In this document: piece by piece, positions 13,510 to 63,113 of the stretch
Layout: each line of letters opens with the position of its first letter
Position numbering within the stretch: the stretch's first letter is position 1
Source of the DNA: Ramlibacter agri
GTDB lineage: Bacteria > Pseudomonadota > Gammaproteobacteria > Burkholderiales > Burkholderiaceae_C
DNA: 64,000 nucleotides
Direction: 5' to 3'
NCBI RefSeq assembly: GCF_012927085.1
Contig: NZ_JABBFX010000001.1
Location: 2,728,001-2,792,000, forward strand
The notes under the pieces: generated by a model
What the model saw: only the letters and a program-made list of their open reading frames with translations
Databases searched by the model: none
What the model was told of the DNA's origin: nothing
Position numbers and translations under genes: made by a program

Positions 13510-13515
13510 GCCGCC

Positions 13516-14855: not shown

Positions 14856-15638
14856 TCAGCGGCCGTGGAACCGGGCCGGCCGCTTTTCCTGCCAGGCCCG
14901 GCTGCCCTCCCGCAGGTCTTCGGAGGCCTGGGCCCGGGCGATGTCCTGCGCGATGCGCCCGGCATCCAGCCGGCCGCGTGCCATGGCGCTGATGTGCCGC
15001 TTCATAGGCAGCAGCGCCAGCGGACCCATGGCGGCGAGCTCCGCGCTCATCCTGTCCAGCTCCCGAACCAGTTCCTGCGGATCCGCCAGCAGCCGGTGCA
15101 GCATGCCCGCCGCCAGCATCGCCGGGCCATCGAAGCGCTCGGCCAGCAGCATCACCCGGCGCGTGAGGTCCGGGCCGAGCAGCGCCACATAGCGCTCCAG
15201 GCCGCCGCGGTAGTAGTGCAGGCCCAGGCGTGCCGCCGGCACCTGCCATTCGCAGCCGGCGGCGCCGAGGCGGAAGTCGCAGGCCAGCGCGAGGTCGGTC
15301 GCGCCGCCGTACACGCCGCCTTGCAGCGCCGCGATGGTGACCGGCCGCGTCGCTTCGATCGCATCGGCGAGCTGCTCGAACAGCCGCCCGGCCTCGCCGC
15401 CTTCGCCCGCCATGCGGTTCAGGTTGAAGCCGGCGCAGAAACTCCGCCCGCTGGCGACCAGGCGCAGCACCAGCACCTCGGGCCGCGCATCCACCGCATC
15501 GATGTGCGCCAGCAGGGCGTGCAGGTCCTCCGGTTCCAGGCGGTTCGCCTGGGCCGGGCGCTGCAGCGCAATGGTGGCGATGCGACCTTCGATCTGCAGC
15601 GTCGGCACGCCGCCCGGATCGCGTTCAACGCCAGCCAT
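14856..15638 (-). CDS. enoyl-CoA hydratase/isomerase family protein
   Basis: A 260-residue crotonase-fold protein. It shows RPAQANRLEPEDLHALL, the oxyanion-hole segment SGRSFCAGFNLNRM, and LQGGVYGGATDLALACDFRLG with the second oxyanion glycine pair. The usual hydratase glutamates are not obvious in EWQVPAARLGLHYY, so hydratase, isomerase or hydrolase action are all possible. The ATG at 15638 overlaps the end of the upstream aldolase gene by 14 bases. It is the last gene of the leftward catabolic operon. Confidence 0.88.
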   Translation of the reverse strand: MAGVERDPGGVPTLQIEGRIATIALQRPAQANRLEPEDLHALLAHIDAVDARPEVLVLRLVASGRSFCAGFNLNRMAGEGGEAGRLFEQLADAIEATRPVTIAALQGGVYGGATDLALACDFRLGAAGCEWQVPAARLGLHYYRGGLERYVALLGPDLTRRVMLLAERFDGPAMLAAGMLHRLLADPQELVRELDRMSAELAAMGPLALLPMKRHISAMARGRLDAGRIAQDIARAQASEDLREGSRAWQEKRPARFHGR

Positions 15639-16287
15639 AGACATCCAGCGTGCTGGCGCCGGCGCGCAGCCGCTCCAGGATCGCGGCTTCCTGCGCCTCG
15701 CGCGCGTGCGAGGCGGCCAGCACCTGTTCGGCCCGGCCCGCGGGAATCGCCACCACGCCGTCGCCATCGCCCACCACGAGATCGCCCGCCTGCACCACCA
15801 CGTCGCCCATCAGGACCGGATGGTTGATCCAGCCGGTGGCGCCGAAGTCCTTGCCGGTGCCGCGGATGCACAGCCCGCGTGCGAACACCGGGAAGCCGAT
15901 CGCGGCCAGCAGCACGCCGTCGCGCACGCAGCCGTCGATGACCAGGCCGGCCATCTTCCGCGCCTGCGCCATGGTGCTCATGATCTCGCCCCAGTAGCCA
16001 TGTTCGTAGGCGCCGCTGCAGAAAGCCACCAGCACGTCGCCGGGCTGCGCGATGTCCAGCGCGCGATGCAGCCACAGGTTGTCGCCGGGCGGCGCGTGCA
16101 CCGTCAGCGCAGGGCCGGCAAAGCGGAAGCCTGGCGCCATCGGCTTCAACACAGAGGGCAAGGCGCCGATCTTGCCGGCCGCTTCGTGCAGCGTGGCCGT
16201 CGGCAGCTTCGCTGCCTCGTGCACCAGCGAGGCCGCGACGCGCTGCCTGCCGGTGCGGGTGGTAGCCGCGGGATCATGCCGCTTCAT
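15625..16287 (-). CDS. RraA-family protein / HMG-CHA aldolase-like, paralogue 1
   Basis: A 220-residue protein of the RraA/4-hydroxy-4-methyl-2-oxoglutarate aldolase family. The signature GEIMSTMAQ, then VIDGCVRDGVLLAAIGFPVF includes the Arg-Asp pair that binds metal and substrate in the aldolases. These enzymes (LigK, GalC, ProA) split 4-carboxy-4-hydroxy-2-oxoadipate into pyruvate and oxaloacetate at the end of protocatechuate 4,5-cleavage and gallate pathways. The linked extradiol dioxygenase and LigJ-like hydratase support that role. Of the three paralogues here this one is closest to the canonical motif. Its start overlaps the next stop (ATGA). Confidence 0.85.
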   Translation of the reverse strand: MKRHDPAATTRTGRQRVAASLVHEAAKLPTATLHEAAGKIGALPSVLKPMAPGFRFAGPALTVHAPPGDNLWLHRALDIAQPGDVLVAFCSGAYEHGYWGEIMSTMAQARKMAGLVIDGCVRDGVLLAAIGFPVFARGLCIRGTGKDFGATGWINHPVLMGDVVVQAGDLVVGDGDGVVAIPAGRAEQVLAASHAREAQEAAILERLRAGASTLDVYGWR

Positions 16288-16949
16288 GCCGCCTCGCGCG
16301 CCTGCAACTGGTGGTAGCGGAAGGCCTTGCGGGCCTCGTCCAGCCGCATGCCGTCGCGCACCGCCGCGCGGATGCGGTCTTCCGCCGCCTCGATGGCTTC
16401 CGCCGTTTCCAGGACGCGGTCCTCGTGGGCGCGCGGGATCACCAGCACGCCGTCGCAGTCGCCCTTGACCAGGTCGCCGGGCGCCACGCGCGCATTGCCG
16501 ATGTTGACCGGCACGCCGGTGGCTTCCACCTGCACGCGGTCCTTGCCGGTGCGCATCCAGTGGGCCTTGCTGAAGATCGGGTAGCCGAGCTTGCGGCACA
16601 GGTGCGTGTCGCGGCAGACGCCGTCGATCAGCGTGCCGGCGATGCCGCGCCGGTGCGCGATCTCGGTGAGGATGTCGCCCCACACGGTGGCGTCATCGCG
16701 CCCGCCGTTGTCCAGGACGATCACGCTGCCGGGCGGCACGTCGTCGATGTAGTCGCCCACGGTGCCGGGCGGGTTGCCGGCCGGCCCGTACAGCAAGGTC
16801 CAGGCGCGGCCAGCCATGCGGAACGACGGGTCGCGGCCTTGGATCCGGTAGCACTGGCCGGCGATGCCCAGCTTGTCCAGCGCGTCGCTGAGGGTGGCGG
16901 TGTCCAGTTTCGCGGCGCGCGCGACGTTGCGGTCTTCGGTCGGGTCCAT
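16284..16949 (-). CDS. RraA-family protein / aldolase-like, paralogue 2
   Basis: A 221-residue paralogue. It has WGDILTEIAHRRGIAGTLIDGVCRDTHLCRKLGYPIFSKAHWM, keeping the Arg-Asp pair but with a changed flank (GVCRD, and YPIFSKA for FPVFARG), so substrate contacts differ. The N-terminus TATLSDALDKLGI is shared with paralogue 3. It overlaps both neighbours (ATGA at 16284 and one shared base at 16949), so the three are translated together. An aldolase, decarboxylase or heteromeric subunit role is possible. Confidence 0.82.
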   Translation of the reverse strand: MDPTEDRNVARAAKLDTATLSDALDKLGIAGQCYRIQGRDPSFRMAGRAWTLLYGPAGNPPGTVGDYIDDVPPGSVIVLDNGGRDDATVWGDILTEIAHRRGIAGTLIDGVCRDTHLCRKLGYPIFSKAHWMRTGKDRVQVEATGVPVNIGNARVAPGDLVKGDCDGVLVIPRAHEDRVLETAEAIEAAEDRIRAAVRDGMRLDEARKAFRYHQLQAREAA

Positions 16950-17623
16950 CAGGAATCCTTCTGCAGCATGTGTTCGTAGTTGCCGCCCATCACTTCGGCA
17001 ATGGGCGTGCCGGCCAGGATGGCCTTGGCCATGGCGGCCTCTTTCGCGACGATGCCTTCGGCGGCCTCGAGCACGCGTGCTATGTCCGCCGCGGCGATGA
17101 AGAGGACGGCGCTGCGATCGGCCAGCACGTAGTCGCCCGGCTGCACCTGGACTTCGCCAATCTGCACCGGCACCTGCGTACCGAGCTCCACCACGCGGCC
17201 GCGCGCGGTGCGCGAGGTGAGGCTGCGGCTGAAGACGGGAAAGCCGTAGGCGATGGCTTCGTCGACGTCGCGCAACGGGCCGTCGGCCACCACGCCTTCG
17301 ACGCCGCGCACCTTGGCGCCCAGCGTCAGCAGCCCGCCCCAGCACCCGGCCTCGACGCCGCTGCGCTGCTCCACGACGATCACGTGGTCCGGGCCGGCCA
17401 GGCCGATCGCGCTGCAACCGAGGTGCACGGGTGGGCCGGGCGGGCGCTCGCCCGGGCCCACTTTCATGGTCACGGCGCGGCCGGCGATGCGGCCGCCGCC
17501 GTGGTCGGGGCCGCTGCGTTGCGGAATGCCGGTGACGGCGCCGGCCAGTCCCAGCTTGTCGAGGGCATCGGAAACGGCGCAGGCGTCAAGCCGGCGCAGC
17601 CTCTGCACGAAGGGATCGCTCAT
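16949..17623 (-). CDS. RraA-family protein / aldolase-like, paralogue 3
   Basis: A 224-residue paralogue. CWGGLLTLGAKVRGVEGVVADGPLRDVDEAIAYGFPVF keeps Arg-Asp, but the preceding VIDG becomes VADG and the fold's metal site may differ. It begins MSDPFVQRLRRLDACAVSDALDKLGL and ends with a C-terminal extension (AKAILAGTPIAEVMGGNYEHML) of the type that in some family members forms the substrate lid. It lies four bases downstream of the extradiol dioxygenase gene, so it may act directly on a ring-cleavage product. Confidence 0.82.
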   Translation of the reverse strand: MSDPFVQRLRRLDACAVSDALDKLGLAGAVTGIPQRSGPDHGGGRIAGRAVTMKVGPGERPPGPPVHLGCSAIGLAGPDHVIVVEQRSGVEAGCWGGLLTLGAKVRGVEGVVADGPLRDVDEAIAYGFPVFSRSLTSRTARGRVVELGTQVPVQIGEVQVQPGDYVLADRSAVLFIAAADIARVLEAAEGIVAKEAAMAKAILAGTPIAEVMGGNYEHMLQKDS

Positions 17624-51750: not shown

Positions 51751-52221
51751 GTGAACGAGCTCAAACACGACCCGCAGGCCCCCGCCGGCGCCGACCGCGC
51801 CAATGACCTCGGCTACGCGCCCATGGACAAGGTGCATGCGGAATTCGACGAACTGCTGCAGCGCGCCGCCACGGTGCAGGCGGCGGCAGAATGGCCGCCG
51901 CTGCTGCGCGAGATCGACGCCCACCTGCACCAGCACTTCGAGGCCGAAGACCGCTGGATGCGCGAGACCGATTTCCCGCCGCGCGATTGCCACATCGACG
52001 AACACGCCGCGGTGCTGAAGTCCTCCGGCGAAGTGCTGGCGCTGGCCGAACAGGGCAATGTCAACCCGGCGCCGTCCTTCGTCGCCGAACTGGCGCGCTG
52101 GTTCCCGGGCCATGCCGACTACCTCGATTCGGCGCTGGCCGCCTGGATGTGCAAGCGCACCTTCGGCGGCAAGCCGGTGGTGCTGCACCGGAAGAAAGGC
52201 GACGGCGCCAGCGCCGCCTGA
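51751..52221 (+). CDS. bacteriohemerythrin-type protein
   Basis: A 156-residue protein starting at GTG. The di-iron ligand pattern is kept: VHAEFDELL, then HLHQHFEAEDRWM, and CHIDEHAAVL. The C-terminal part is longer than in minimal bacteriohemerythrins and ends with WMCKRTFGGKPVVLHRKK. Such proteins bind O2 or sense iron or NO. It is cytoplasmic, with no visible partner. Confidence 0.9.
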   Translation: MNELKHDPQAPAGADRANDLGYAPMDKVHAEFDELLQRAATVQAAAEWPPLLREIDAHLHQHFEAEDRWMRETDFPPRDCHIDEHAAVLKSSGEVLALAEQGNVNPAPSFVAELARWFPGHADYLDSALAAWMCKRTFGGKPVVLHRKKGDGASAA

Positions 52222-52227
52222 ACTGAC

Positions 52228-52866
52228 CTATTCGAGGCAGCCTTCGGCCTGCGTCCATTGCAGGTGCAGGCGCTCGTCGACATAGGCGCAAGGAAAGGGC
52301 CGCGGCCCCGTCAGGTCGAAGTCCGCCAGCCGCAGGGGCGGGGCCTTGTGCAGGCGCAGCGGGTAGCTGGTGCGGCCCTCGGGCACGTGGTGGGCGCGGA
52401 AGTGCTCCACGGCGCGCTGGAACGCGGGCAGATCTTCCGGGTCCACGATGCGCCCCCACAGCGTGGCCCGTCCCTTCACGAGATCGATGCTGCCGCCGGT
52501 CCAGAGCTGGTCGCGGGCGCCGTCGGTGGCGGGCACCATGTCCTGCCATTCGATGCCAACGATGCTGAGCGCGCCCTTGTGGAAGTGCACGCGGTACGCA
52601 TGCCAATAGACGCCGTGGTGCGCCGTGGGGGCGGCATTCAGGAGGAGCGCCCCGCCGCTGAAGCTGGGCTGGTAGGCCTGCGCATTCGCGATCGGGAGGT
52701 TGGCCAGCTCCAGCGTCTTCTCCCGGATGACCAGCCGGCTTGCACCGGGTTCGGGCGAGGGCACGACCTCGACGGCGAGGTGGCGCCTGTCCAGCTTGCC
52801 TTCCTGCGTCTGCGCGGCCGCGACGGCCGACAGCAGCGCCAGGGCGATGGCGGCAACGGCCTTCAT
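52228..52866 (-). CDS. secreted hypothetical protein
   Basis: A 212-residue protein I do not recognise. The signal peptide is MKAVAAIALALLSAVAAAQ. The mature part is beta-rich, with VYWHAYRVHFHKGALSIVGIEWQDM and PCAYVDERLHLQWTQAEGCLE; two Cys near the end may form a disulfide. It overlaps the HTH gene by an ATGA and is convergent with the hemerythrin gene, six bases apart. Function unknown. Confidence 0.75.
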   Translation of the reverse strand: MKAVAAIALALLSAVAAAQTQEGKLDRRHLAVEVVPSPEPGASRLVIREKTLELANLPIANAQAYQPSFSGGALLLNAAPTAHHGVYWHAYRVHFHKGALSIVGIEWQDMVPATDGARDQLWTGGSIDLVKGRATLWGRIVDPEDLPAFQRAVEHFRAHHVPEGRTSYPLRLHKAPPLRLADFDLTGPRPFPCAYVDERLHLQWTQAEGCLE

Positions 52867-53108
52867 GCCTGCACCTTCACCGTGACGCCGTAAAGGGCCA
52901 GCAGGCCCAGCACGTGGTCGATCGCCACCCCGGGTTCCCCAGCTTCGATGCGGCCGATGGTCTGGACGTGCACGCCTAGCCGGGCGGCCGCGGCCGCCTG
53001 GCCTTCGCCCGCCGCCGTGCGGGCCTGTTTCGCCGCCGCTCCCATGTCCTTGATGGACTGGAGGGCCCCCTCGTGGATGTCCGCCGAAATGCGCTTGCCT
53101 TGAGCCAT
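52863..53108 (-). CDS. small Xre-type helix-turn-helix protein
   Basis: An 81-residue DNA-binding protein with AKQARTAAGEGQAAAAARLGVHVQTIGRIEAGEPGVAIDHVLGLLALYGV, a single lambda-repressor-type HTH (about residues 25-75). It resembles the HTH partners of some small two-gene modules, and the gene downstream encodes a secreted protein whose start overlaps this stop. Divergent from the iclR-type gene, so the two share an upstream region of 99 bases. Confidence 0.8.
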   Translation of the reverse strand: MAQGKRISADIHEGALQSIKDMGAAAKQARTAAGEGQAAAAARLGVHVQTIGRIEAGEPGVAIDHVLGLLALYGVTVKVQA

Positions 53109-53137
53109 GGGGCAGCATTGTCGCTTTTCGCAGATTC

Positions 53138-53176
53138 TGGAAGTCGCTTCCAAAATGGAAAAGACTTCCGTATACT
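53138..53176 (+). promoter_or_regulatory. two IclR-type operator candidates with -10 element
   Basis: TGGAAGTCGCTTCCA (53138-53152, perfect 6-base arms) and TGGAAAAGACTTCCG (53156-53170, nearly matching arms) lie 18 bases apart and follow the known IclR-family consensus TGGAAATNATTTCCA. A -10-like TATACT (53171-53176) starts immediately after. Both sites are upstream of the IclR-type gene, consistent with autoregulation and possibly control of the divergent HTH gene. Confidence 0.6.
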
Positions 53177-53207
53177 CCGCCGCCGTGCCGACCACCGGAC
53201 CCCGACC

Positions 53208-54017
53208 ATGAGCGCCATCATCCTGCGCAGCTTCCGCATCCTCGAGGAGCTGTCCAACTATCCCAAGGGCCGCACGCTGTCCGAACTGGCGGCGGCCGTC
53301 GACATTCCGCTGAGCGCCACCCACCGCCTGCTGGCCGACCTGATGCAGGCCGGCTACGTGCGCAAGGACGACCGCCACGACGACTTTCTGCTGACGATGC
53401 AGGTCGTGTCGCTGGGCTTGCGTTTCCTCAGCGCCAGTGGCGTCGTCGACGTGGCGCAGCCCACGCTGGAACGCCTGGCCGCCAAGAGCGGCGAACTGGT
53501 GCGCCTGGCCGTGGTCGACCAGGACCAGCTGGTCTACGTCGCCAAGGCCCAGGGCGCGACGCAAGGCCTGCGCTACGACCCCGAGATGGGCCGCCCGGTG
53601 CGCCTTTCCTGCAGCGCCGCCGGCCTGGTGTGGCTCGCGACCAAGAGCGACGACGAGGCGATCCGCCTCGTCACCAAACAGGGCATGGGCAACCCCGCCG
53701 ATTTCGGCCCCGCGGCCCCGACCTCGATCATGGAACTGATGGCGCAGGTGCAGGCCGCGCGCAAGCGCAAGTTCGCCACCACGGTCAACGTCTTCCTGCC
53801 GGCCATGAGCTCCATGGCGACGCTGGTCCGCGACCCGCGCGGCGACGTCATCGCCGCCCTCATCGTCGCCGGCCCCATGACGCGCCTGACGCAGGGCCGC
53901 ATGGACTCGCTCGGCGACGCGCTGCTGGCCGCGGCCGACGAACTGGGCCGCAACAGCAACGTGTCCCCCGTGTTCCAGCGCCGGCCCGACCAGCCGGCGC
54001 CGCAACTGTCGAAGTGA
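53208..54017 (+). CDS. IclR-family transcriptional regulator
   Basis: A 269-residue regulator. The N-terminal winged helix (about residues 5-65) has NYPKGRTLSELAAAVDIPLSATHRLLADLMQAGYVRKD, and the C-terminal effector domain has LVRLAVVDQDQLVYVAKAQGAT and CSAAGLVWLAT. The ATG at 53208 gives the standard family start. IclR proteins sense small organic acids and aromatic compounds. Its place before a TRAP transporter suggests control of that uptake system. It ends 17 bases before the receptor gene. Confidence 0.92.
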   Translation: MSAIILRSFRILEELSNYPKGRTLSELAAAVDIPLSATHRLLADLMQAGYVRKDDRHDDFLLTMQVVSLGLRFLSASGVVDVAQPTLERLAAKSGELVRLAVVDQDQLVYVAKAQGATQGLRYDPEMGRPVRLSCSAAGLVWLATKSDDEAIRLVTKQGMGNPADFGPAAPTSIMELMAQVQAARKRKFATTVNVFLPAMSSMATLVRDPRGDVIAALIVAGPMTRLTQGRMDSLGDALLAAADELGRNSNVSPVFQRRPDQPAPQLSK

Positions 54018-54034
54018 ATCCACCAACAGAGGAG

Positions 54035-55060
54035 ATGATCATCAGCGCTTCCATCCAACGCCGTACCGTGCTCGGCGCCATCGCCGCCGCGCCCTTCGTG
54101 AGCGGCCCCTTCATCACGCGTGCCCGCGCCGCCGAATTCACCTTCAAGGTCGCCCACCCCCTGGCGGCCACCCACCCGACGCACCTGCGCCTGCAGCAGG
54201 CCGCCGACAACATTGCCAAGGACACCGAAGGCCGCATCGAGCTGCGCCTGTTCCCGAACAACCAGCTCGGTGGCGAAGTGGACCTGCTGAACCAGGTGCG
54301 CTCCGGCGCGGTGGAAATGTTCGTGGTCGGCGGCCTGATCGCTTCCAGCGTGGTGCCGATGGCGGCGCTGGACGGCGTGGGCTTCGCCTTCAAGGACACG
54401 CCCTCCGTGCTGAAGGGCATGGACGGCGCGCTCGGCGCGCACATCCGCGCCGCGCTGATGCAGGCCAACCTGTACGCGACCTCCACCATCTGGGACTACG
54501 GCTTCCGCCAGATCACGTCGTCCGCGCATCCCGTCAAGGCGGTCAGCGACCTGGCCGGCATGAAGATTCGCGTGCCGGGCGCCGCCGCCTACGTGGACCT
54601 CTTCAAGGCGCTGGGCGCCGCGCCCACCAGCATCCAGTTCAATGAGGTGTACCCCGCGCTGCAGACGAAGATCGTCGACGGCCAGGAGAATCCGCTGGGC
54701 ACCATCCTCACCTCCAAGTTCTACGAGGTGCAGAAGTTCTGCGCGATGAGCAACCACATCTGGCAGGGCAACTGGGTCCTGATCAACGGCCGCGTGTGGC
54801 GCGGCCTGCCGCCCAAGCTGCAGGAAGTGCTGGAGAAGCGGCTGAACGAAGCCGGCTTGCTGCAGCGCCAGGACCTGGCCAGCCAGGAAGCGGGCTACCG
54901 CGACACCATGGCCAAGGCCGGCATGGCCTTCAACGCGGTGGACGCCGACTCCTTCCGCAAGAAGCTCACCGCCTCGGGCTACTACACCGAGGCGCGCAAG
55001 AAGTTCGGCGACGCCGCCTGGAAGGTGCTCGAGAACGCCGCCGGCGGTTCGCTGGCATGA
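54035..55060 (+). CDS. dctP: TRAP transporter periplasmic receptor (DctP type)
   Basis: A 341-residue receptor. The signal has a twin-arginine motif (IQRRTVLGAIAAAPFV) and the mature protein begins with FTFKVAHPLAATHPTHLRLQQAADNIAKDTEGRIELRLFPNNQLGG, the DctP hallmark. The conserved Arg that contacts the ligand carboxylate is in GMKIRVPGAAAYVD. It binds an organic acid for sodium-coupled uptake. The ligand is not clear. The stop overlaps the permease start (ATGA). Confidence 0.93.
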   Translation: MIISASIQRRTVLGAIAAAPFVSGPFITRARAAEFTFKVAHPLAATHPTHLRLQQAADNIAKDTEGRIELRLFPNNQLGGEVDLLNQVRSGAVEMFVVGGLIASSVVPMAALDGVGFAFKDTPSVLKGMDGALGAHIRAALMQANLYATSTIWDYGFRQITSSAHPVKAVSDLAGMKIRVPGAAAYVDLFKALGAAPTSIQFNEVYPALQTKIVDGQENPLGTILTSKFYEVQKFCAMSNHIWQGNWVLINGRVWRGLPPKLQEVLEKRLNEAGLLQRQDLASQEAGYRDTMAKAGMAFNAVDADSFRKKLTASGYYTEARKKFGDAAWKVLENAAGGSLA

Positions 55061-56928
55061 GCCTGAGCCAGGCAGTGCGCCCCGGGGCCGGGGCGCCTGC
55101 GGCTTCCGTGGCCGGCGTCATCGACGCCTGGCTCGGACGCTGCATCGAATTCGTGGCGGCGGTGCTGATCGTCTTCGAGGTCGCACTGCTGTTCTCGGGC
55201 GTCGTGGCGCGCTACGCGCTGCACCACCCGATCGTGTGGTCCGACGAACTGGCGGGCAGCGTCTTCCTGTGGCTCGGCATGCTGGGCGCGGTGATCGCGC
55301 TGCGGCGCGGCGAGCACCTGGCCTTCAACGCCTTGTCGCAGCGCGTGTCGCCGCGCGCGCAGGTGCTGTTCCAGGCCGTCGTGCTGGCCGTGGTCTTCGC
55401 CACGCTGTGCCTGCTGCTGAAGCCGGCCTACGACTACGTCGAGGACGAGACCTTCGCCGTGCTGCCCAACCTGGGCGTGCCATCGAGCTGGCGCGTGCTG
55501 GGCATCGCGGTCGGCGTGGTGCTGATGCTGGCGACGGTGCTGCTGCAGGCGGTGAGCCGCGGCAACTTCCGCGCCACCGCCAGCGGCGCGGCCATCGTGC
55601 TGGTGCTGGGCCTGGTGCTGTGGCAGCTGGCCGGCCCGCTGGCGCGCATCGGCAACCTGAACCTGTTCGTGTTCTTCGTGCTGATCGTCGGTGCGGCCAT
55701 CGTCATCGGCGTGCCCATCGGCTTTGCCTTCGGCCTGGCGACATTGACCTACCTGGCCTGCACCACGTCCACGCCGCTCAGCGTGGTGGTGAACCGCCTG
55801 GACCAGGGCATGTCGCAGCCGCTGCTGCTGGCGATCCCCATGTTCATCTTCCTGGGGCTGCTGATCGAAGTGACCGGCTTCGCGCGGACCATCATCGCGC
55901 TGCTCGCGTCGCTGATGGGGTTCGTGCGTGGCGGCCTCTACTACGTGCTGCTCGTCGCCATGCTGCTGGTCTCCGGCATCTCCGGTTCCAAGGTCGCCGA
56001 CATGGCGGCCGTGGCGCCGGGCCTGTTCCCGGAGATGCGCCGGCGCGGCGCCAAGGACGGCGACCTCACCGCGCTGCTGGCCAGTTCAGCGGCGATGGCC
56101 GACACGATTCCCCCGAGCATCGTGCTGATCACGCTGGGCTCCGTCACCGGCATGTCGATCGCCAGCCTGTTCTCGGCCGGCATCCTGCCCGCGCTGGTGC
56201 TGACCGTGGCGCTGGGTGTGGTCACCTTCGTGCGCACCCGCGACGACACGCCGCCCGAGGACGCGCGCCCCGACTGGTCGAAGATCCGCAAGGCGCTGCT
56301 GCCGGCGCTGCCGGCGATCGCGCTGCCTTTCGTGATCCGCTGGGCGGTGGTCGAGGGCGTGGCGACGGCGACCGAGGTGTCGACCATCGGCATCGTCTAC
56401 GCGCTGGTGGTCGGCATCCTGCTGTACCGGCCGGTGCAGTGGAAGCGCTTCTATCCGGCGCTGGTGGAAACCGCGGTGCTGTCCGGCGCGATCCTCTTCG
56501 TGATCGGCACGGCCACCGGCATGGCCTGGTCGCTGACGCAGTCCGGCTTCTCCTCGCAGCTGGCCAAGGCCATGACGGCGCTTTCGGGCAATGCCGCCGG
56601 CTTCCTGGCGATCACGATCATCGTGTTCGTGCTGCTCGGGAACATCCTGGAAGGCATTCCGGCCATCCTGTTGTTCGCGCCGCTGCTGCTGCCGGTGTCG
56701 CACGCCTTCGGCATCAACGACCTGCACTACGCGATGGTGGTGGTCATCGCCATGAGCATCGGCCTGTTCGCGCCGCCCTTCGGCATCGGCTTCTACGCCG
56801 CCTGCGCGATCGGCAAGGTCGCGCCGGACGAGGTGATAGGCCACATGTGGCGCTACCTCGGCGCCTTGATCGTGGGCCTGATCGCCGTTGCCGCGGTGCC
56901 CTGGTTCTCCACCGCCTTCATCCACTAG
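55057..56928 (+). CDS. TRAP transporter fused DctQM permease
   Basis: A 623-residue membrane protein that fuses the small subunit (DctQ, about residues 1-170; CIEFVAAVLIVFEVALLFSGVVARY, WSDELAGSVFLWLGMLGAVIALR) to the large subunit (DctM, about 200-623; PMFIFLGLLIEVTGFA, SGISGSKVADMAAVAPGLFPEM, ASSAAMADTIPPSIVLI). Fusions of Q and M are known in TRAP families. About 16 membrane segments are expected. It drives sodium-coupled uptake with the DctP receptor encoded upstream. Confidence 0.93.
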   Translation: MSLSQAVRPGAGAPAASVAGVIDAWLGRCIEFVAAVLIVFEVALLFSGVVARYALHHPIVWSDELAGSVFLWLGMLGAVIALRRGEHLAFNALSQRVSPRAQVLFQAVVLAVVFATLCLLLKPAYDYVEDETFAVLPNLGVPSSWRVLGIAVGVVLMLATVLLQAVSRGNFRATASGAAIVLVLGLVLWQLAGPLARIGNLNLFVFFVLIVGAAIVIGVPIGFAFGLATLTYLACTTSTPLSVVVNRLDQGMSQPLLLAIPMFIFLGLLIEVTGFARTIIALLASLMGFVRGGLYYVLLVAMLLVSGISGSKVADMAAVAPGLFPEMRRRGAKDGDLTALLASSAAMADTIPPSIVLITLGSVTGMSIASLFSAGILPALVLTVALGVVTFVRTRDDTPPEDARPDWSKIRKALLPALPAIALPFVIRWAVVEGVATATEVSTIGIVYALVVGILLYRPVQWKRFYPALVETAVLSGAILFVIGTATGMAWSLTQSGFSSQLAKAMTALSGNAAGFLAITIIVFVLLGNILEGIPAILLFAPLLLPVSHAFGINDLHYAMVVVIAMSIGLFAPPFGIGFYAACAIGKVAPDEVIGHMWRYLGALIVGLIAVAAVPWFSTAFIH

Positions 56929-56931
56929 ACC

Positions 56932-57678
56932 ATGGCCATGCTTGGACAAGGAGCCCTCGCCATGTGGTGGAACATGGCGCCGGAGCACAGGGCGGATTTC
57001 GAGGACTGGCACACGCACGAGCACTTCCCCGAGCGGCTGGGGGTGCCGGGCTTCCGGCGCGCCTCGCGCTGGACCCGCGCGGACGGCGGCGAGGGCGTGT
57101 TCGTGCTGTACGAACTGGAAAGCCATGCGACGCTGTCTTCGCCGGCCTACCTGGCGCGGCTCAACGCGCCGACGCCCTGGTCGACGCGGCTGATGCCGCA
57201 CCATCGCAACATGGTGCGCGGGCAGACGCGGGTGCTGCAATCGCTGGGTGCCGTGATCGCTCGCCGGGCGCTGACCCTCCGGCTGTCGCCGGCACCAGGG
57301 AAGGCGCAGGCGCTGCAGGCTGCGCTTCAATCGCTGATGGCCGGCATCGCGGCCACGCCCGGCTTCGCCGGAGCGCACCTGTTGCAGCACGAGACCCCGC
57401 GGATTCCGCAGACGACCGAGCAGAGGATTCGCGGCGCTGCCGACCAGGTCGCGGACTGGGTCCTGGTTGTGTGTGCCTATGACACACAGGCCCTGGAAGC
57501 GTTCGCTGCGAACGAGCTGTCGGCAAGCGCGCTCGAGGCGCTGGGCGCCACCACGGGCTCGGTCCAGGCCATTTACGAACTAGCGTGTTCCGCGACGCCC
57601 GACGACGTCCCGTGCACGAAACAGGAGGGGACGGGTCTTGGCGGACGAGATGAAGGTCACCCTGGAGACCGCTCCTGA
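56932..57678 (+). CDS. dimeric alpha/beta-barrel-type hypothetical protein
   Basis: A 248-residue protein with two ferredoxin-like halves. WWNMAPEHRADFEDWHTHEHFPERLGVPGFRRASRW at the start and ALQSLMAGIAATPGFAGAHLLQHETPRIPQTTEQ in the second half look like the dimeric alpha/beta-barrel (EthD/DUF4286-like) fold. It starts four bases after the permease and is probably co-expressed. The last 30 residues overlap the following gene in another frame. A role in handling the transported compound is plausible; no reaction can be assigned. Confidence 0.65.
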   Translation: MAMLGQGALAMWWNMAPEHRADFEDWHTHEHFPERLGVPGFRRASRWTRADGGEGVFVLYELESHATLSSPAYLARLNAPTPWSTRLMPHHRNMVRGQTRVLQSLGAVIARRALTLRLSPAPGKAQALQAALQSLMAGIAATPGFAGAHLLQHETPRIPQTTEQRIRGAADQVADWVLVVCAYDTQALEAFAANELSASALEALGATTGSVQAIYELACSATPDDVPCTKQEGTGLGGRDEGHPGDRS

Positions 57679-58099
57679 CAACCAGCTGATGCGCGCGCAT
57701 CGGGTCGCCAGCAAGACCCTCGAGCGTGAAGACATCGACTGGCTGTGCAACGGGTTCGCGGCCTTCCTGGCCAGCGCCGGCCGCGTTCCGCTGGAACGCT
57801 GCCTGCGCCTGCCGGCCAACGAACGCGCGCTGAGCCGCGCACGGCGCGATGACCTGCTGTGCGCGGCCTGGCTCGAGACCGACCCCGCGCTGTCCGCGTG
57901 GCAACGCTCCGAAGCCCTGGCCGCGGAGGTGCGGCGCTTCGGCGCGCGCAAGTGGCCGCGCTGGTCGACGCTAGGCGCGGCTCCCGATGGCGCCAGCGCC
58001 ATCGAACGGGCGCTCTTCGAAGCGTTCCGCTCCCACGAGCGCATCCCCGGAACCGCCATGCAACTGCACAACATCGCGGCGCCATGCCGCGGCGAATGA
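57638..58099 (+). CDS. hypothetical protein with TTG start
   Basis: A 153-residue protein I do not recognise. It begins MADEMKVTLETAPDNQLMRAHRVASKT and is largely helical and charged. A strong AGGAGGGG site (57623-57630) sits nine bases before the TTG at 57638, a better spacing than for the ATG at 57650. It overlaps the end of the alpha/beta-barrel gene by 41 bases in another frame. The codon use and high GC third positions match its neighbours, so it looks real. Function unknown. Confidence 0.6.
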   Translation: MADEMKVTLETAPDNQLMRAHRVASKTLEREDIDWLCNGFAAFLASAGRVPLERCLRLPANERALSRARRDDLLCAAWLETDPALSAWQRSEALAAEVRRFGARKWPRWSTLGAAPDGASAIERALFEAFRSHERIPGTAMQLHNIAAPCRGE

Positions 58100-58105
58100 A
58101 GCGGC

Positions 58106-58187
58106 CACAAAATTTGTTGTCGGTCCAATTTTGTGACCCTCTCCCTAGACTCGTCCGCCTGATTGCACCAAACACTGGAGACGAACG
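58106..58187 (+). promoter_or_regulatory. control region of paralogue A with CACAAAATT inverted repeat
   Basis: CACAAAATT (58106-58114) and AATTTTGTG (58127-58135) form a 9-base inverted repeat with a 12-base spacer, 21 bases start to start. A -10-like TAGACT lies at 58146-58151 and a GGAGA ribosome site precedes the ATG. The whole 82-base stretch aligns without gaps to the region upstream of the paralogue at 61263; by eye about 72 of 82 bases agree. A shared regulator is likely. Confidence 0.7.
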
Positions 58188-59318
58188 ATGGAGAGACGCA
58201 ATTTCCTTTCGGGAGCGGCCGTCATGGCAGCCGGGATGGCCTTGGTCAAGGAGGCCACTGCGCAAGCGGTCACGGCGACGCCGCAGAAGCTGGTCACGCA
58301 GCTCTGGTCGCGCCACCTGCAATGGGTCAGCACCCAGGCCTATGCGCAAGCCAACCCCGAAAGCGCCGGCATCATGATCGGCGATGCGCTCCGGCAGTGC
58401 GGCTATGCCGCCGTCGACCTCACGGTGCGTGCCGACGGCCATGTGCTGCCCCAGAACGTGGCCACGGTGCTGCCGCTGATGCTCAAGGGCATCCGCAGCA
58501 CGGGCGCGATCTGCGACCACATCGGCGTCAATTTCGCGCCGCCGGCCGATGCGAACAACACGCAGTGGATCGCGGACCAGTACGTGCACGAGATCCTGTC
58601 GGTGGCCGCCGCCAACGGCATCAAGAAGTACCGCTTCAACAATGCCGGCGCCGCCAGCTTCGCGCCGAACACCTACGGCGCCGCCATGACGGCGGTGCTC
58701 GATGGCGTCCGGGCGAACCACCAGCGCCTGGCAGCGATCAACAGCCAGTACGGCGGCCTGTGCGGCGTGGCCCACACGCACGGCAGCAACATCGGCACCA
58801 CGGTGTACGACTACGAGTACTCGATGCGCGACATCGATCCCAACCTGGTTGCCATCAACTTCGCGATCAGCCACACGGCGGGGGCCGCGCCGCCGCCGTC
58901 GTCGGGCACCGCGCTGTGGCAGCTGGAACTGCGCCGCCACATGCCGCGCATCAAATGCACGGCCGTCGAGGACATGAAGGCCGCGGTCGACGCGACGACC
59001 GGCGCTGTAAGCACCAGCACGATCGAGCCGCTGCCGGCCACCACCGGCGGCGGCCTGATCAACTGGACCTCGTTCTACCAGCTGCTGCTGAACGGCGGCT
59101 ACAGCGGCGCGGCCGAGTCGCAGATCGAGTACAGCATCCCTGACGCCCTCGGCGGGACGATCAGCCTGAACAGCGCCTTCTTCGCGGACAACGCCGCGTT
59201 CACTTCGGGCCGGCTGACGCGCGCCATGATGCTCGCGACCATGAAGAACGCGTCCGACTTCATCCGGGCGCGGGCGACGGCTGCCGGCTGGGGCCAGAAC
59301 GGGACGCTGATCGTCTGA
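58188..59318 (+). CDS. exported TIM-barrel (sugar phosphate isomerase/epimerase-like) protein, paralogue A
   Basis: A 376-residue protein. The N-terminus MERRNFLSGAAVMAAGMALV with RRNFLSG suggests twin-arginine export, cleavage after TAQA. The body begins LVTQLWSRHLQWVSTQAYAQA, then QCGYAAVDLTVRADGHVLPQNV, and has ICDHIGVNF and CGVAHTHGSNIG, a pattern of a metal-dependent xylose-isomerase-like TIM barrel. IKCTAVEDMKA and INWTSFYQLLLNGGYSGAAESQIEYSI are strongly shared with paralogue B at 60010. Export of such a barrel is unusual. The substrate is unknown. Confidence 0.8.
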   Translation: MERRNFLSGAAVMAAGMALVKEATAQAVTATPQKLVTQLWSRHLQWVSTQAYAQANPESAGIMIGDALRQCGYAAVDLTVRADGHVLPQNVATVLPLMLKGIRSTGAICDHIGVNFAPPADANNTQWIADQYVHEILSVAAANGIKKYRFNNAGAASFAPNTYGAAMTAVLDGVRANHQRLAAINSQYGGLCGVAHTHGSNIGTTVYDYEYSMRDIDPNLVAINFAISHTAGAAPPPSSGTALWQLELRRHMPRIKCTAVEDMKAAVDATTGAVSTSTIEPLPATTGGGLINWTSFYQLLLNGGYSGAAESQIEYSIPDALGGTISLNSAFFADNAAFTSGRLTRAMMLATMKNASDFIRARATAAGWGQNGTLIV

Positions 59319-59325
59319 GCGCGCC

Positions 59326-59949
59326 ATGAAGGACGAAGTGTTCGGCCTGTTCCCCACGCCCGTCCTGCGTGCGCCGGGCGTGCTCGGCAAGCGCCTGGTC
59401 GACGGCCTGGTGCAGCACTTCAGCGCGCGGGCCACGCAGGACAACCAGGAGTCCGGCCAGCTGTCGCACACCGCGATGCTCGGCGCCCAGGACAGCCCGC
59501 TGCTGGTGGAGGCGGCGCTGGCGATCACGCCGAAGATCGTCGACATGGGCGCGCTCCTGTTCGGCCAGCGGCTCGAGTGGGCGATCAAGGCGATGTGGGT
59601 CAATGTGCTGGAGCCTGGCGGCATGCAGGCACAGCACGTCCACGCCAACAGCTTCGTGTCGGGCATCGTCTACCTGACGCCGACGCACCCGGGTTCGCAG
59701 ACCGTGTTCATGAAGTCGTCCACCGGCACCGACTTCGTCTTCAGGAGCGCGGGCCCGCAGGTGGCGTCCACGCCGTTCAACGCCGAGCGCTGGGTCAGCC
59801 CCGCGCCGGCGCCGGGCGACCTGCTGCTGTTCCCCAGCTACCTGCTGCACGCCGTCCCCCCCAACCAGGGTGAACGCCGCATGACGATGTCGTTCAACGC
59901 CATCCCGCACGGCCTGGACTCCTGGGGTTACCAGGTCCAATTCGGCTGA
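59326..59949 (+). CDS. putative 2OG-Fe(II) oxygenase family protein
   Basis: A 207-residue protein of the TIGR02466-type putative 2-oxoglutarate/Fe(II) oxygenase family. FGLFPTPVLRAP starts it; the core is WVNVLEPGGMQAQHVHANSFVSGIVYL, with His104 and His106, and the distal LHAVPPNQGERRMTMSFN has His175 and Arg185, the expected distal metal ligand and 2-oxoglutarate contact. No signal peptide. It lies seven bases after paralogue A and probably shares its transcript. Substrate unknown; such enzymes hydroxylate peptides or small molecules. Confidence 0.85.
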   Translation: MKDEVFGLFPTPVLRAPGVLGKRLVDGLVQHFSARATQDNQESGQLSHTAMLGAQDSPLLVEAALAITPKIVDMGALLFGQRLEWAIKAMWVNVLEPGGMQAQHVHANSFVSGIVYLTPTHPGSQTVFMKSSTGTDFVFRSAGPQVASTPFNAERWVSPAPAPGDLLLFPSYLLHAVPPNQGERRMTMSFNAIPHGLDSWGYQVQFG

Positions 59950-59962
59950 ATCTCCGCTCATG

Positions 59963-59994
59963 AAAAAGGGCGCGCCGCCTGGCGCGCCCTTTTT
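59963..59994. terminator. bidirectional intrinsic terminator
   Basis: A perfect 14-base inverted repeat, AAAAAGGGCGCGCC (59963-59976) and GGCGCGCCCTTTTT (59981-59994), loop GCCT. The T-runs at both ends suit both the plus-strand oxygenase gene and the minus-strand paralogue B. Confidence 0.92.
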
Positions 59995-60009
59995 CCTGCC
60001 CGGTCCAAT

Positions 60010-61263
60010 TCAGAGGATGGAGCTGTTGCTGCCGTCCTTGCCCCAACCCGCAGACGCCGCCCGCTCCCGGATGAAGGTGGAGGCGTTCTTCATGGTCCGG
60101 GTCATCATGGCGGGCGTCAGCCGGCCCGAGGTGAACGCGGCGTTGTCCGAGAAGAAGGCGGTGTTCAGGCTGATCGTCCCGCCGAGGGCGTCGGGGATGC
60201 TGTACTCGATCTGCGACTCGGCCGCGCCGCTGAAGCCGCCGCGCAGCAGGTGCCCGTAGAAGTTGTCCCAGTTGATCACGCCGCCGCCCTTGGTGCCCGG
60301 CAGCGGTTCGATCGTGGTGCCGCTCAAGGCGCCGGTGCTGGCGTTGACCGTCGCCTTCATGTCCTCGACGGCCGTGCACTTGATGCGCGGCATGTGGCGG
60401 CGCATCTGCAGTTCCCACGCCGGATTGCTGGCTCCGCCCAGCGCCGCGCCGGCCGTGTGGCTGATGGCGAGGTTGATGGCGATCAGGCTGGGGTCGATGT
60501 CGCGCATCGCATAGTCGTAGTCGTACACGCTGGTGCCGATGTTGCTGCCGTGCGTGTGGGCCACGCCGCACAGGTTGCCGTACTTCGCGTTCAGCGCCGC
60601 CAGGCGCTCGTGGTTCACGCGGACGCCATCGAGCAGCGCCGACATCGTGTCGCCGAAGGTGTTGTTCGCGAAGGATGCGAGCGTCAGGGTGCCCGTGGTG
60701 CCGGGGACCGCCGTGCCGCCGGCATTGTTGAAGCGGTACCTCTTGATGCCGTTGGCGCCGGCCACCGCGAGCACTTCTTCCACGTTCTCGGCCACGAGCC
60801 AGCTGGTGTTGAGCGGGTCGGTCAGCGGCGTGAAGTTGACGCCGATGTGGTCGCAGATGGCGCCCGTGCTGCGGATGCCTTTCAGCATGTCCGGCAGGTG
60901 CGTCTTGACGTTCTGCGGCAGCACATGGCCGTCGGCGCGCACCGTCAGGTCGACGGCGGCATAGCCGCACGCCAGCAGGGCCTCGCCGATCTTGACGCCG
61001 ATGCCGTAGGGGTCGCTTCCGGCCTGGGCCTCGGCCTGGGTGCTGACCCATTGCAGGTGGCGCGACCAAAGCTGCGTCACCAGTTGCTGGGGCTGCGCGG
61101 GCGTCGTGTCGACGGGAGGGGTGGTCGACCCGGTGTCGACGGGAGTGTCAGTGCCCGACGGCCCTGGCGTCACCGGCGGGGAGTCCGAACCGCCGCCGCA
61201 GGCTGACAATCCGACTCCAGCCACCATGGCGGCGGCTCCCGAAAGAAAATGGCGTCTCTCCAT
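60010..61263 (-). CDS. lipoprotein TIM-barrel (sugar phosphate isomerase/epimerase-like) protein, paralogue B
   Basis: A 417-residue paralogue of the protein at 58188. The N-terminus MERRHFLSGAAAMVAGVGLSAC carries both an RR motif and a lipobox (LSAC, Cys22), then a Gly/Ser/Pro/Thr linker of about 40 residues. The barrel repeats the same blocks (LVTQLWSRHLQWVSTQAEAQA, CGYAAVDLTVRADGHVLPQNV, KCTAVEDMKATV). So one paralogue is soluble and the other predicted to be anchored to a membrane, with the same fold outside the cytoplasm. Convergent with paralogue A and the oxygenase. Confidence 0.8.
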   Translation of the reverse strand: MERRHFLSGAAAMVAGVGLSACGGGSDSPPVTPGPSGTDTPVDTGSTTPPVDTTPAQPQQLVTQLWSRHLQWVSTQAEAQAGSDPYGIGVKIGEALLACGYAAVDLTVRADGHVLPQNVKTHLPDMLKGIRSTGAICDHIGVNFTPLTDPLNTSWLVAENVEEVLAVAGANGIKRYRFNNAGGTAVPGTTGTLTLASFANNTFGDTMSALLDGVRVNHERLAALNAKYGNLCGVAHTHGSNIGTSVYDYDYAMRDIDPSLIAINLAISHTAGAALGGASNPAWELQMRRHMPRIKCTAVEDMKATVNASTGALSGTTIEPLPGTKGGGVINWDNFYGHLLRGGFSGAAESQIEYSIPDALGGTISLNTAFFSDNAAFTSGRLTPAMMTRTMKNASTFIRERAASAGWGKDGSNSSIL

Positions 61264-61345
61264 CGTTCGTCTCCATTGTTTGATGCAATCGAACGAACGA
61301 GTCTAGGGAGAGGGCCACAAAATTGGGCCCGCAACAAATTTTGTG
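61264..61345 (-). promoter_or_regulatory. control region of paralogue B with CACAAAATT inverted repeat
   Basis: On the minus strand the same elements occur in the same order and spacing as upstream of paralogue A: arms at 61337-61345 and 61316-61324 (12-base spacer), a TAGACT at 61300-61305 and GGAGA before the ATG. The two regions are therefore inverted copies about 3.2 kb apart. Confidence 0.7.
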
Positions 61346-61376
61346 GAGCCGCGGGGCGACCCCCGCGATGCTCCGC

Positions 61377-61520
61377 TTACTTGTTCTTCAGCTTCCCCTT
61401 CGGCATGACGGAGGTGACGGGCGGCATCGGCCGGTCCGAGCCGCTGCCTTCCTTGGGCGGCGAAGTGTCCTTCTTCGGCTTCTTCGCCATCTTGTTGCTG
61501 CGTTGTTCGCCTTTGGGCAT
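61377..61520 (-). CDS. small basic hypothetical protein (47 residues)
   Basis: A 47-residue protein starting MPKGEQRSNKMAKKPKKD and ending MPKGKLKNK, rich in Lys and Pro and without hydrophobic stretches. An AGGAGA site sits seven bases upstream of the ATG at 61520, which supports real translation. Similar very small basic proteins (MxKGxQRSNKxxKKPKK) are, from memory, widespread in Burkholderiales. Nucleic-acid binding is a guess from charge only. Confidence 0.7.
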   Translation of the reverse strand: MPKGEQRSNKMAKKPKKDTSPPKEGSGSDRPMPPVTSVMPKGKLKNK

Positions 61521-61557
61521 GAAGGTCTCCTGTGAGTGTGCTGTAACTGTAGCCCAG

Positions 61558-62187
61558 TCAGGGCTTGCTGCCCGCCTGGAAGTAGCTGCGGATCGCCTTG
61601 GGGACGGCCTTGCGTTGCGCTTTTTGCACCTTCAGCAACAGCTCGTGCGGCACGTGCTCCAGCTCGTAATCGCGCTGCAGGTCGCCCTGGATGCGCGCCA
61701 GCAGCGCCGCGGCCACTTCGGCGTCCGCCAGCGCCCGGTGCGCGCGCCCCGACGAAGGCAGCGCATGGAAGGCGGCCAGCGAGCCGAGCTTGTAGCTCCC
61801 GGCTTCCGGATAGAGCCTTCGCGACAGCAGCAGGGTGCAGGCGAAAGGCGGCTGGGCCGGGGTGTCGCTGCCCAGGCGCTCGAGCTCGGCCTCCCAGAAG
61901 CGCTGGTCGAAGGACGCGTTGTGCGCCACCATGGGCGTGGCGCCGACGAAGCGGGCGGCTTCCGCCATCACTTCCTCGGCCGGCGGCGCCGCCTGCACCA
62001 TCTCGTTGCTGATGCCGGTGTAGGCCTCGATGAAGGGCGAGATGCGCACGCCGGCGTTCATCAGCGACTGGAAGCGGCCGACCACCTGGTCGCCCTCCAG
62101 GATCACGATGGCGACCTCGGTCGCCCGGTCACCCAGGGCGGGCGACAGGCCGGTGGTTTCGAAGTCGATGACGGCGACGGGTTTCAT
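61558..62187 (-). CDS. DnaQ-like (polymerase III epsilon-type) 3'-5' exonuclease
   Basis: A 209-residue DEDDh exonuclease. Motif I is VIDFETTGLSP (Asp8, Glu10), motif II MVAHNASFDQRFWE, and motif III GRAHRALADAEVAAALL with the His-x4-Asp pair. It is shorter than DNA polymerase III epsilon and lacks its C-terminal binding tail, so it is probably a repair or RNA-trimming exonuclease. Its start overlaps the stop of the EamA gene (ATGA). Confidence 0.9.
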   Translation of the reverse strand: MKPVAVIDFETTGLSPALGDRATEVAIVILEGDQVVGRFQSLMNAGVRISPFIEAYTGISNEMVQAAPPAEEVMAEAARFVGATPMVAHNASFDQRFWEAELERLGSDTPAQPPFACTLLLSRRLYPEAGSYKLGSLAAFHALPSSGRAHRALADAEVAAALLARIQGDLQRDYELEHVPHELLLKVQKAQRKAVPKAIRSYFQAGSKP

Positions 62188-63113
62188 GGGCGGGAGGAAG
62201 CAGGGGGAAGCCGCTGCGCGAGCAGCACGCAGCACAGGGCACAGAAGACGAGGAAGACGCCGGCCCATTGCAGGGGCGCGATCGTTTCGCCGAGGAAGGC
62301 GATGCCGGCCAGCATGCCGATGACGGGCACGCCCAGGCTGAAGGGGGCGACGCGGCTGGCGGCGAAGCGCTTCAGCAGCCCGGTCCACAGGCCGTAGGCG
62401 AGGCTGGTCGCCAGCCAGCCCAGCGCGGCGACCGCGGCCCAGGCCTGCCAGGGTGCGTGCCTCCAGTTGCCCTGGGACCCGGGCGGGTCGAAGCACCAGG
62501 ACAACAGCAGGAAGGGAACGATGGCCACCGCGCTGGCCCAGACGACGAAGGGCAGCGGCTGGAAGGCGCCGCTGTCCTGCTGCGCCTTGCGCACGACGAT
62601 GTTGGAGCAGGCCCACATGAAGGCGGAGCCCAGGTTCAGCGCCAGGCCCCAGCCGGTGACGGCCGTCCCGTGCGCCGTCCAGACGTTGGCGGCGAAGCAG
62701 GCCAGGCCCGCCGCCGCAAAAGCGAAGCCCACGCGCAGCGGGCCGCCGATGCGCTCGCGCAGCAGCATGGCGCCGAGGATCGCGGTGAAGAAGACCTGCG
62801 TCTGCATCACGACCGAAGCCACCGCCGCCGTCATGCCCACGCGCAGCGCGACGAACAGCAGCCCGAACTGGCCGACGCCCTGCGTCAGCCCGAAGGCGAG
62901 GATCCAGCGCGGCCGGACCTGCGGCAGCCCGACCCAGAACGCCAGCGGCAGGAAGGCCAGCCCGAAGCGGGCGGCGCCCAGCTGGAAGGGCGTGAAGGAG
63001 GCGAGGCCCACCTTCATCACCACGAAATTCAGGCCCCAGATGACGATGACGGCCAGGACCGAGGCCAGGTCCGAGGGCTTGAAGGGTGTCTGTGCGTTCG
63101 TTGGAGTCGTCAT
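62184..63113 (-). CDS. EamA/DMT-family transporter
   Basis: A 309-residue membrane protein with ten predicted helices in two EamA repeats. VIVIWGLNFVVMKVGLASFTPFQLGAARFGLAFLPL is typical of the first repeat; the second repeat holds ALGWLATSLAYGLWTGLLKRFAASRVAPFSLGVPVIGMLAG. Members export amino acids, metabolites or drugs. It overlaps both the exonuclease gene (62184) and the HAD gene (63110) by four bases. Confidence 0.9.
   Translation of the reverse strand: MTTPTNAQTPFKPSDLASVLAVIVIWGLNFVVMKVGLASFTPFQLGAARFGLAFLPLAFWVGLPQVRPRWILAFGLTQGVGQFGLLFVALRVGMTAAVASVVMQTQVFFTAILGAMLLRERIGGPLRVGFAFAAAGLACFAANVWTAHGTAVTGWGLALNLGSAFMWACSNIVVRKAQQDSGAFQPLPFVVWASAVAIVPFLLLSWCFDPPGSQGNWRHAPWQAWAAVAALGWLATSLAYGLWTGLLKRFAASRVAPFSLGVPVIGMLAGIAFLGETIAPLQWAGVFLVFCALCCVLLAQRLPPASSRP

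Follow-up and report, generated by a model that had tools for sequence, protein, structure and literature searches.

Why should two genes for putatively exported barrel proteins of the triosephosphate isomerase (TIM) type face each other across the gene of a 2-oxoglutarate (2OG)-Fe(II) oxygenase-like protein, each preceded by a copy of the same control region? The question is raised by a block at positions 58106-61345 of a 64,000-nucleotide stretch of the Ramlibacter agri genome (contig NZ_JABBFX010000001.1, positions 2,728,001 to 2,792,000; hereafter the window, to which coordinates refer), in which a preliminary description had noticed the inverted pair (here barrels A and B) and suggested an undescribed envelope system. 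The gene set is real, and literature searches, as judged from their listings, gave no description of it. We favour, at a probability of roughly 0.4, the view that a divergent, exported barrel of xylose-isomerase-like type was duplicated specifically in this lineage, within an uptake-and-catabolism locus that also encodes an IclR-family regulator, a tripartite ATP-independent periplasmic (TRAP) transporter and an ABM-domain protein. The barrels most likely represent the periplasmic step of this locus, dedicated to an anionic compound and duplicated, with shared control, into a soluble and a lipid-anchored form.

Control sites of the barrel pair

The paralogues converge across the oxygenase gene and a perfect hairpin, just as the preliminary description had reported. 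An inverted-repeat search recovered 130 nt at 87% identity at the outer ends of the block (58105-58234/61217-61346), and the regions upstream of A and B align without gaps at 72 of 82 bases, the figure estimated before. The repeat announced there is likewise present in both copies: the palindrome CACAAAATT-N12-AATTTTGTG, with its 12-base spacer, is followed in each at a distance of 10 bases by TAGACT. It was matched twice in the window and never in 100 shuffles, the same two sites alone were retrieved from the window with up to three mismatches allowed, and in the 7.2-Mb genome its exact form is confined to two places, those at the barrel pair. Provided that TAGACT is a -10 element, the palindrome would span about -52 to -23. 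The hairpin between the convergent genes has a 15-bp perfect stem (59962-59976/59981-59995) and a 4-base loop, with an A-run and a T-run on opposite sides; an automatic terminator scan of the window did not report it, and our guess is that the T-run lying inside the stem explains the miss.

In Variovorax sp. J22P168, A, the oxygenase, a convergent B and both palindrome sites are arranged as in the window. Its A site is identical except for the last base, A instead of G, and the J22P168 genome was therefore searched with this base left free, returning only two places in 5.5 Mb; the control sites are thus unique to the pair in both genomes. At the position of TAGACT the alignment shows TACACT in J22P168. 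The three other genomes that were wholly searched have a single barrel match each, with the oxygenase adjoining and no palindrome even with the last base free. The pair is consequently not the basic unit that it had been taken for, and of the two absences named beforehand as refuting, relatives without the repeat were found among these genomes while the oxygenase was kept.

One old duplication and concerted promoters

In a midpoint-rooted tree of 50 rows, A-type (5) and B-type (8) sequences formed two sister clades, and the group that unites them has full support; the remaining 37 fell outside it. Each clade contains both species, which points to one duplication before the species split. Second barrels can also arise beyond this lineage, as two outside-group barrel clusters (P0026 and P0095), on contigs of different size, bear the name of Aquincola sp. 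MAHUQ-54. The upstream regions tell another story: within the same genome they agree at 72/82 (window) and 77/81 (J22P168) positions, against 65/81 (A) and 68/81 (B) for orthologues across species. Coding bodies agree at 965/1131 (A) and 1024/1254 (B) positions between orthologues and at 923/1128 and 856/1132 between paralogues, the B orthologues and the window paralogues being tied at 82%. Informative sites in alignment columns 0-99 comprised 8 grouping by species, none by orthology and 1 cross site, as opposed to 22, 87 and 7, respectively, beyond column 99 (Fisher p 8.6e-6 with cross sites excluded and a boundary picked after the data had been seen); some short coding stretches also favour species grouping, e.g. 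columns 1200-1299 (3 vs 1). On the sequences compared, the promoters of A and B evolve in concert after one old duplication, whereas the coding bodies track orthology. Selection for a match to one regulator would yield such a pattern, as would conversion of one inverted copy by the other.

Divergent barrels with export-type starts

Barrels A and B are 72-74% identical and both begin MERRxFLSGAA, an export-type start, with R3, R4 and F6 found in 42 of 44 family rows and gaps in the other two. B carries in addition the lipobox LSAC after the hydrophobic stretch, in the reading MERRHFLSGAAAMVAGVGLSACGGG, and a linker of about 38 residues; the J22P168 copy reads GLAACGGG at this place. Since the lipobox is added to the shared twin-arginine start, B reads as a lipoprotein of the twin-arginine translocation (Tat) pathway, and the earlier contrast between one Tat-type protein and one lipoprotein is right about the lipobox and inexact about the rest. 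A would accordingly be soluble and B lipid-anchored, both outside the cytoplasm. Export is not exceptional by itself, as other exported proteins of the xylose-isomerase-like fold presumably include the Parabacteroides and Alistipes proteins among the fold matches.

The assignment of A to the TIM barrels rests on fold rather than on family profiles. A structure model of A is predicted with confidence to form a xylose-isomerase-like (beta/alpha)8 barrel matching solved members over about residues 33-374, at 9-16% identity in the 50 matches listed; the PF01261 scores of A (21.4) and B (18.5) fall below the gathering threshold of 31.1, and a PDB sequence search with the barrel gave no relative below E 0.1. 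Many of the relatives listed in our tables (best 120 rows) carry PF01261 in the precomputed annotation column and the name "sugar phosphate isomerase/epimerase" from their source.

PF01261-type barrels hold a divalent metal through Glu-Asp-His-Glu ligands. In a weak alignment with IolE (E 0.19), 43 of 44 family rows show Ala and one shows Gly at the position of the Asp, that of the His is occupied by Ala in 37 rows and by Cys in 7, while E310, the invariant Glu that ends the eighth strand, is kept in all 44 together with an invariant polar set that includes H198, H229, Q312 and E314. The isomerase-like chemistry proposed at the outset is therefore doubtful, within the limits of that alignment. 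The fold and the eighth-strand Glu are common to A and to IolE, UlaE, D-tagatose 3-epimerase, AtHYD (2-hydroxy-3-keto-glucal hydratase; 8ro4) and SCO6571 (2zds), none of which shares its twin-arginine start. J22P168 also encodes a barrel of a second kind (L036:6208-7050, minus strand; PF01261 65.1 bits, above the cut-off), with no export signal by eye, which adjoins genes for oxidoreductases of the GMC and flavin adenine dinucleotide (FAD)-dependent types within its barrel locus; a comparison of barrel A1 with this cytosolic protein for residue mapping gave no result.

The oxygenase partner

The oxygenase meets the curated cut-offs of both PF13759 (81.4 vs 27) and TIGR02466 (70.7 vs 62.5). Enzymes of the 2OG-Fe(II) class are defined by an HxD/E...H iron triad and a 2OG-binding Arg. 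Here H104, H106, H175 and R185 occur in 24 of 24 oxygenase rows, with no acidic residue at 106, an H-x-H plus distal His that is shared with the solved family members 3bvc and 2rg4 (called uncharacterized). What sets the window protein apart is this H104-x-H106 without Asp or Glu at the usual position, and its tie to an exported-type barrel. That tie, already claimed in the preliminary description, extends to all seven loci compared, in both relative orientations, although locus L009 retains only a 40-residue oxygenase fragment.

The dependence does not run both ways. We surveyed 80 selected genomes, of which 5 carry the barrel, 7 have distant matches to a small neighbour gene (for a 153-residue protein, discussed below), 14 were taken from the genus and 54 from the family; the oxygenase was found at E 1e-15 in 13, including all five barrel-positive ones. 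Close relatives of the oxygenase (E 1e-102 to 1e-113) were present in five genomes scored as barrel-free, being unlisted among the barrel matches of the family genomes (G105, G093, G103, G090 and G071); weaker ones occur in G304, G025 and G104. A barrel-oxygenase pair obligate in both directions was rejected because of these five close relatives without a barrel match.

Nine barrel-free oxygenase stretches (L061-L069, from the five genomes just named and G025, plus second copies of G242, G445 and G138) were searched for the barrel without a match. Inspected by eye, eight of them encode an exported-looking protein of 734-766 residues and the ninth a 414-residue piece, in the company of a spermidine-synthase-like membrane protein (8/9), a PPIC-like protein (9/9), a HupE-like protein (8/9), a PCuAC-like protein (7/9) and a PEP-CTERM-like protein (7/9). 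Domain tests on L062 placed PF01564, PF04314, PF13145, PF13795 and PF07589 above their cut-offs, and related its large protein to CehA/McbA metallohydrolases below cut-off (41.8 vs 80 bits). The PCuAC copper chaperone of these clusters has, by eye, an RR start, with HupE/UreJ and PPIC rotamase alongside. The parts seen of an article on the copper proteins of beta-proteobacteria (PMC6769254) make no mention of 2-oxoglutarate, an oxygenase, HupE or spermidine.

Genomic context and distribution

The block stands at the end of a run in the order IclR, DctP, DctQM, ABM protein and 153-residue protein, the last gene stopping 6 bases short of the first palindrome, while 7 bases separate barrel A from the oxygenase; all three TRAP components are matched by domain (PF03480, PF04290 and PF06808 for DctP, DctQ and DctM). 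In J22P168 the corresponding run holds a divergent iclR, DctP, an ABM-like protein, the cytosolic PF01261 barrel, the GMC oxidoreductase and then the FAD-dependent oxidoreductase, a zinc alcohol dehydrogenase, DctQ, DctM, the 153-residue gene and the block. Two Aquincola-type loci (L016 and L017) combine IclR, a pyrroloquinoline quinone (PQQ)-type dehydrogenase, two PEP-CTERM-type proteins, a single barrel, the oxygenase, TRAP genes and an ABM-like protein. The window ABM protein is 59-65% identical to the barrel neighbours in the Aquincola-type loci and J22P168, and the IclR genes at L016, L017 and J22P168 are 45-46% identical to that of the window. With such company in the window, J22P168 and both Aquincola-type loci, the term envelope system appears too broad. 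DctP, DctQM and IclR stand in one run with the block as they do in TRAP/IclR catabolic loci in general; the window differs from these in adding the barrels, the oxygenase and an unannotated gene, and some barrel relatives in adding the PQQ-type dehydrogenase and PEP-CTERM proteins. In the remaining loci, L018 and L010 join the barrel to a convergent oxygenase and a PQQ-type dehydrogenase, and L009 holds the dehydrogenase tail beside the oxygenase fragment. Genome G445 (L048 and L018) has two same-family PQQ-type dehydrogenase genes on one contig and, between them, the small gene and genes resembling, by eye, those for an aldehyde dehydrogenase, a thiamine-type protein and a coenzyme A transferase.

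The 153-residue protein, rich in Arg and Trp, has 182 relatives; searches for domains and against PDB and PHROG gave no match of note. Its gene is 80% identical in J22P168, at the same left-side position, and a linkage test was made on the longest contig of each cluster, equal-sized listed contigs being taken as the same contig. At 10 kb or more (40 barrel, 21 oxygenase and 29 small-gene clusters), 11 contigs were shared by barrel and oxygenase, 13 by barrel and small gene (among them those of the window and J22P168) and 9 by oxygenase and small gene, and 7 carried all three, vs none in six shifted controls; at 4 kb or more the counts were 14, 16, 10 and 8, and a single shifted control gave one chance match. 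Linkage need not mean adjacency, as the small gene of G445 lies about 10 kb from the oxygenase. Neither Aquincola-type genome contains it at E 1e-8, and among 399 genomes 9 were positive, 7 of these through distant matches only.

The barrel family itself is patchy. Of the 7998 best candidates from a search of 5.8 billion proteins, at least 192 were relatives at E 1e-3, and on contigs from one genome per species 5 of 33 pattern matches encode a relative. The genome searches, in partly overlapping sets with a loose first pass and scoring of part of the candidates, found the barrel in 4 of 399 family genomes (own included), in the own genome alone of 60 from the genus and of 274 from the class, and in 2 of 399 from the order, the second being a 42-residue piece at a contig edge. 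J22P168 was the only positive of 101 in its genus, and a further set of 61 gave the own genome and a weak fragment with stops (E 8.4e-4).

Proposed function and competing explanations

In the reading that we favour, a dedicated regulator would bind both palindromes, overlapping the -35 region, and turn on the A-oxygenase unit and B jointly when the compound of the locus is present. In the periplasm the barrels would bind or convert this compound, whose anionic nature is suggested by the TRAP link and by conserved Arg residues; the usual metal site would be replaced by a pocket of conserved residues (Arg, His, Asn and Glu), B keeping the reaction at the membrane and A serving the periplasm. The TRAP system would take up the product and the cytoplasmic oxygenase could perform an oxidative step on it. 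As to the regulator, the barrel palindrome was not found upstream of iclR in the window, J22P168, L016 or L017; IclR stays a candidate binder. The 153-residue protein as regulator is unproven, since its gene also occurs in G445, a genome without the palindrome. An inverted repeat of another kind, TTCCAAAATGGAA, lies upstream of iclR (53148-53160) and may, by eye, be an IclR site.

Several results weigh against this proposal. A consensus scan passed no sigma-70-like promoter and left TAGACT unreported, and both barrels score just below the profiles for export (TAT_signal 18.5/15.2 vs 22.7; TIGR01409 15.7/16.4 vs 16.7). Eight of the 13 oxygenase-positive genomes have no reported barrel, close relatives among them. 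DctP of L017 and DctM of L016 are 75-77% identical to those of J22P168 and only 31-34% to those of the window, so that the compound may differ or TRAP be incidental. No IclR, TRAP or ABM homologue was found in the stretches of L018 with L048, L010 and L009, two of them on short contigs, and the window genome lacks a close relative of the PQQ-type dehydrogenase that occurs in single-barrel loci (best 33% identity over part).

The apparent loss of the metal ligands could be purposeful if the barrels were non-catalytic binding or sensory pseudo-enzymes that hold a ligand for TRAP or a sensor, and the lipid-anchored copy would suit such a role; we consider this possible at a rather low probability, as the dense invariant polar set has been kept and binding alone leaves the oxygenase link unexplained. 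That link is instead central to the idea that the oxygenase is a maturation enzyme, hydroxylating the barrel in the cytoplasm ahead of its export. Tat transports folded proteins, the oxygenase accompanies the barrel in every locus compared and in 5 of 5 barrel-positive genomes searched, and the barrel-free loci pair the same oxygenase family with another exported-looking protein set. It is nonetheless unlikely: with eight barrel-free carriers, five of them close, the barrel is not the sole possible partner; G138, G242 and G445 each have two oxygenases and one barrel match, and we know of no modified barrel residue. Somewhat less probable still is the wider notion that TIGR02466-type oxygenases modify exported proteins, so that hydroxylation of a Tat-exported barrel with a dismantled metal site would create a protein-derived active site, the CehA/McbA-like cluster of other Burkholderiales supplying a different exported partner.

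An exported member of the xylose-isomerase-like superfamily with ordinary sugar epimerase, dehydratase or lyase activity, duplicated by chance, would agree with the top fold matches, which are such enzymes or same-fold unknowns, and with the source names of many relatives; the two replaced ligand positions (again from the weak alignment), the recurrent oxygenase and small-gene links and the empty PDB sequence search make it improbable, too. Finally, instead of being operators, the paired palindromes might mark the ends of a mobile unit or be a structural relic, given that inverted copies bound the block and that the family is so scattered. This we regard as very improbable, for neither genome holds a further copy, the spacing to TAGACT is equal in both window copies, the small gene also lies left of the block in J22P168, the guanine-plus-cytosine content of the locus genes (0.675-0.710) is near that of the window (0.691), and no plasmid record contained a relative of barrel A. 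Whatever its exact role, the block defines a rare family of exported-type barrels whose active site seems to have been rebuilt, together with a partner oxygenase, whose link to the barrel could reveal the role of the TIGR02466 family, and a recurrent unannotated neighbour. Its paired, concerted promoters, unique in each genome, offer a clean setting in which to look for a dedicated regulator.

Gene inventory and further observations

Features of the barrel locus in window coordinates
Feature	Position	Strand	Basis or remark
IclR-family regulator	53208..54017 (longer frame 53073-54017)	+	domain match
TRAP solute-binding protein DctP	54035..55060	+	domain match
TRAP DctQ-DctM fusion	55108..56928	+	domain match
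ABM-domain protein	56932..57678	+	domain match
Unannotated gene, 153 aa	57638..58099	+	recurs near barrel and oxygenase genes, though not universally
Palindrome CACAAAATT-N12-AATTTTGTG, putative operator of barrel A	58106..58135	+	pattern search
TAGACT, putative -10 element, barrel A promoter	58146..58151	+	position in both window copies and alignment
Barrel A, 376 aa, xylose-isomerase-like TIM barrel	58188..59318	+	MERRNFLSGAA start, without lipobox
2OG-Fe(II) oxygenase-like gene, 207 aa, PF13759/TIGR02466	59326..59949	+	both curated cut-offs passed
Bidirectional terminator, perfect 15-bp hairpin	59962..59995	none	inverted-repeat search and reading
Barrel B, 417 aa, RR motif and lipobox LSAC	60010..61263	-	TIM barrel through homology to A
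TAGACT, putative -10 element, barrel B promoter	61300..61305	-	
Palindrome, putative operator of barrel B	61316..61345	-	same site in Variovorax sp. J22P168

An Rfam scan of 52000-62500 gave no match. Elsewhere in the window, two adjacent genes of the same direction (12667-14367) have, by eye, clearly similar starts (WNTQWCCG and WNMQWGRG) and are presumably tandem endonuclease/exonuclease-type proteins. Three successive genes on the minus strand (15625-17623) are likewise alike at the start (LDTATLSDALDKLGIAG-like, by eye), and we take them from their appearance to be RraA-type paralogues.

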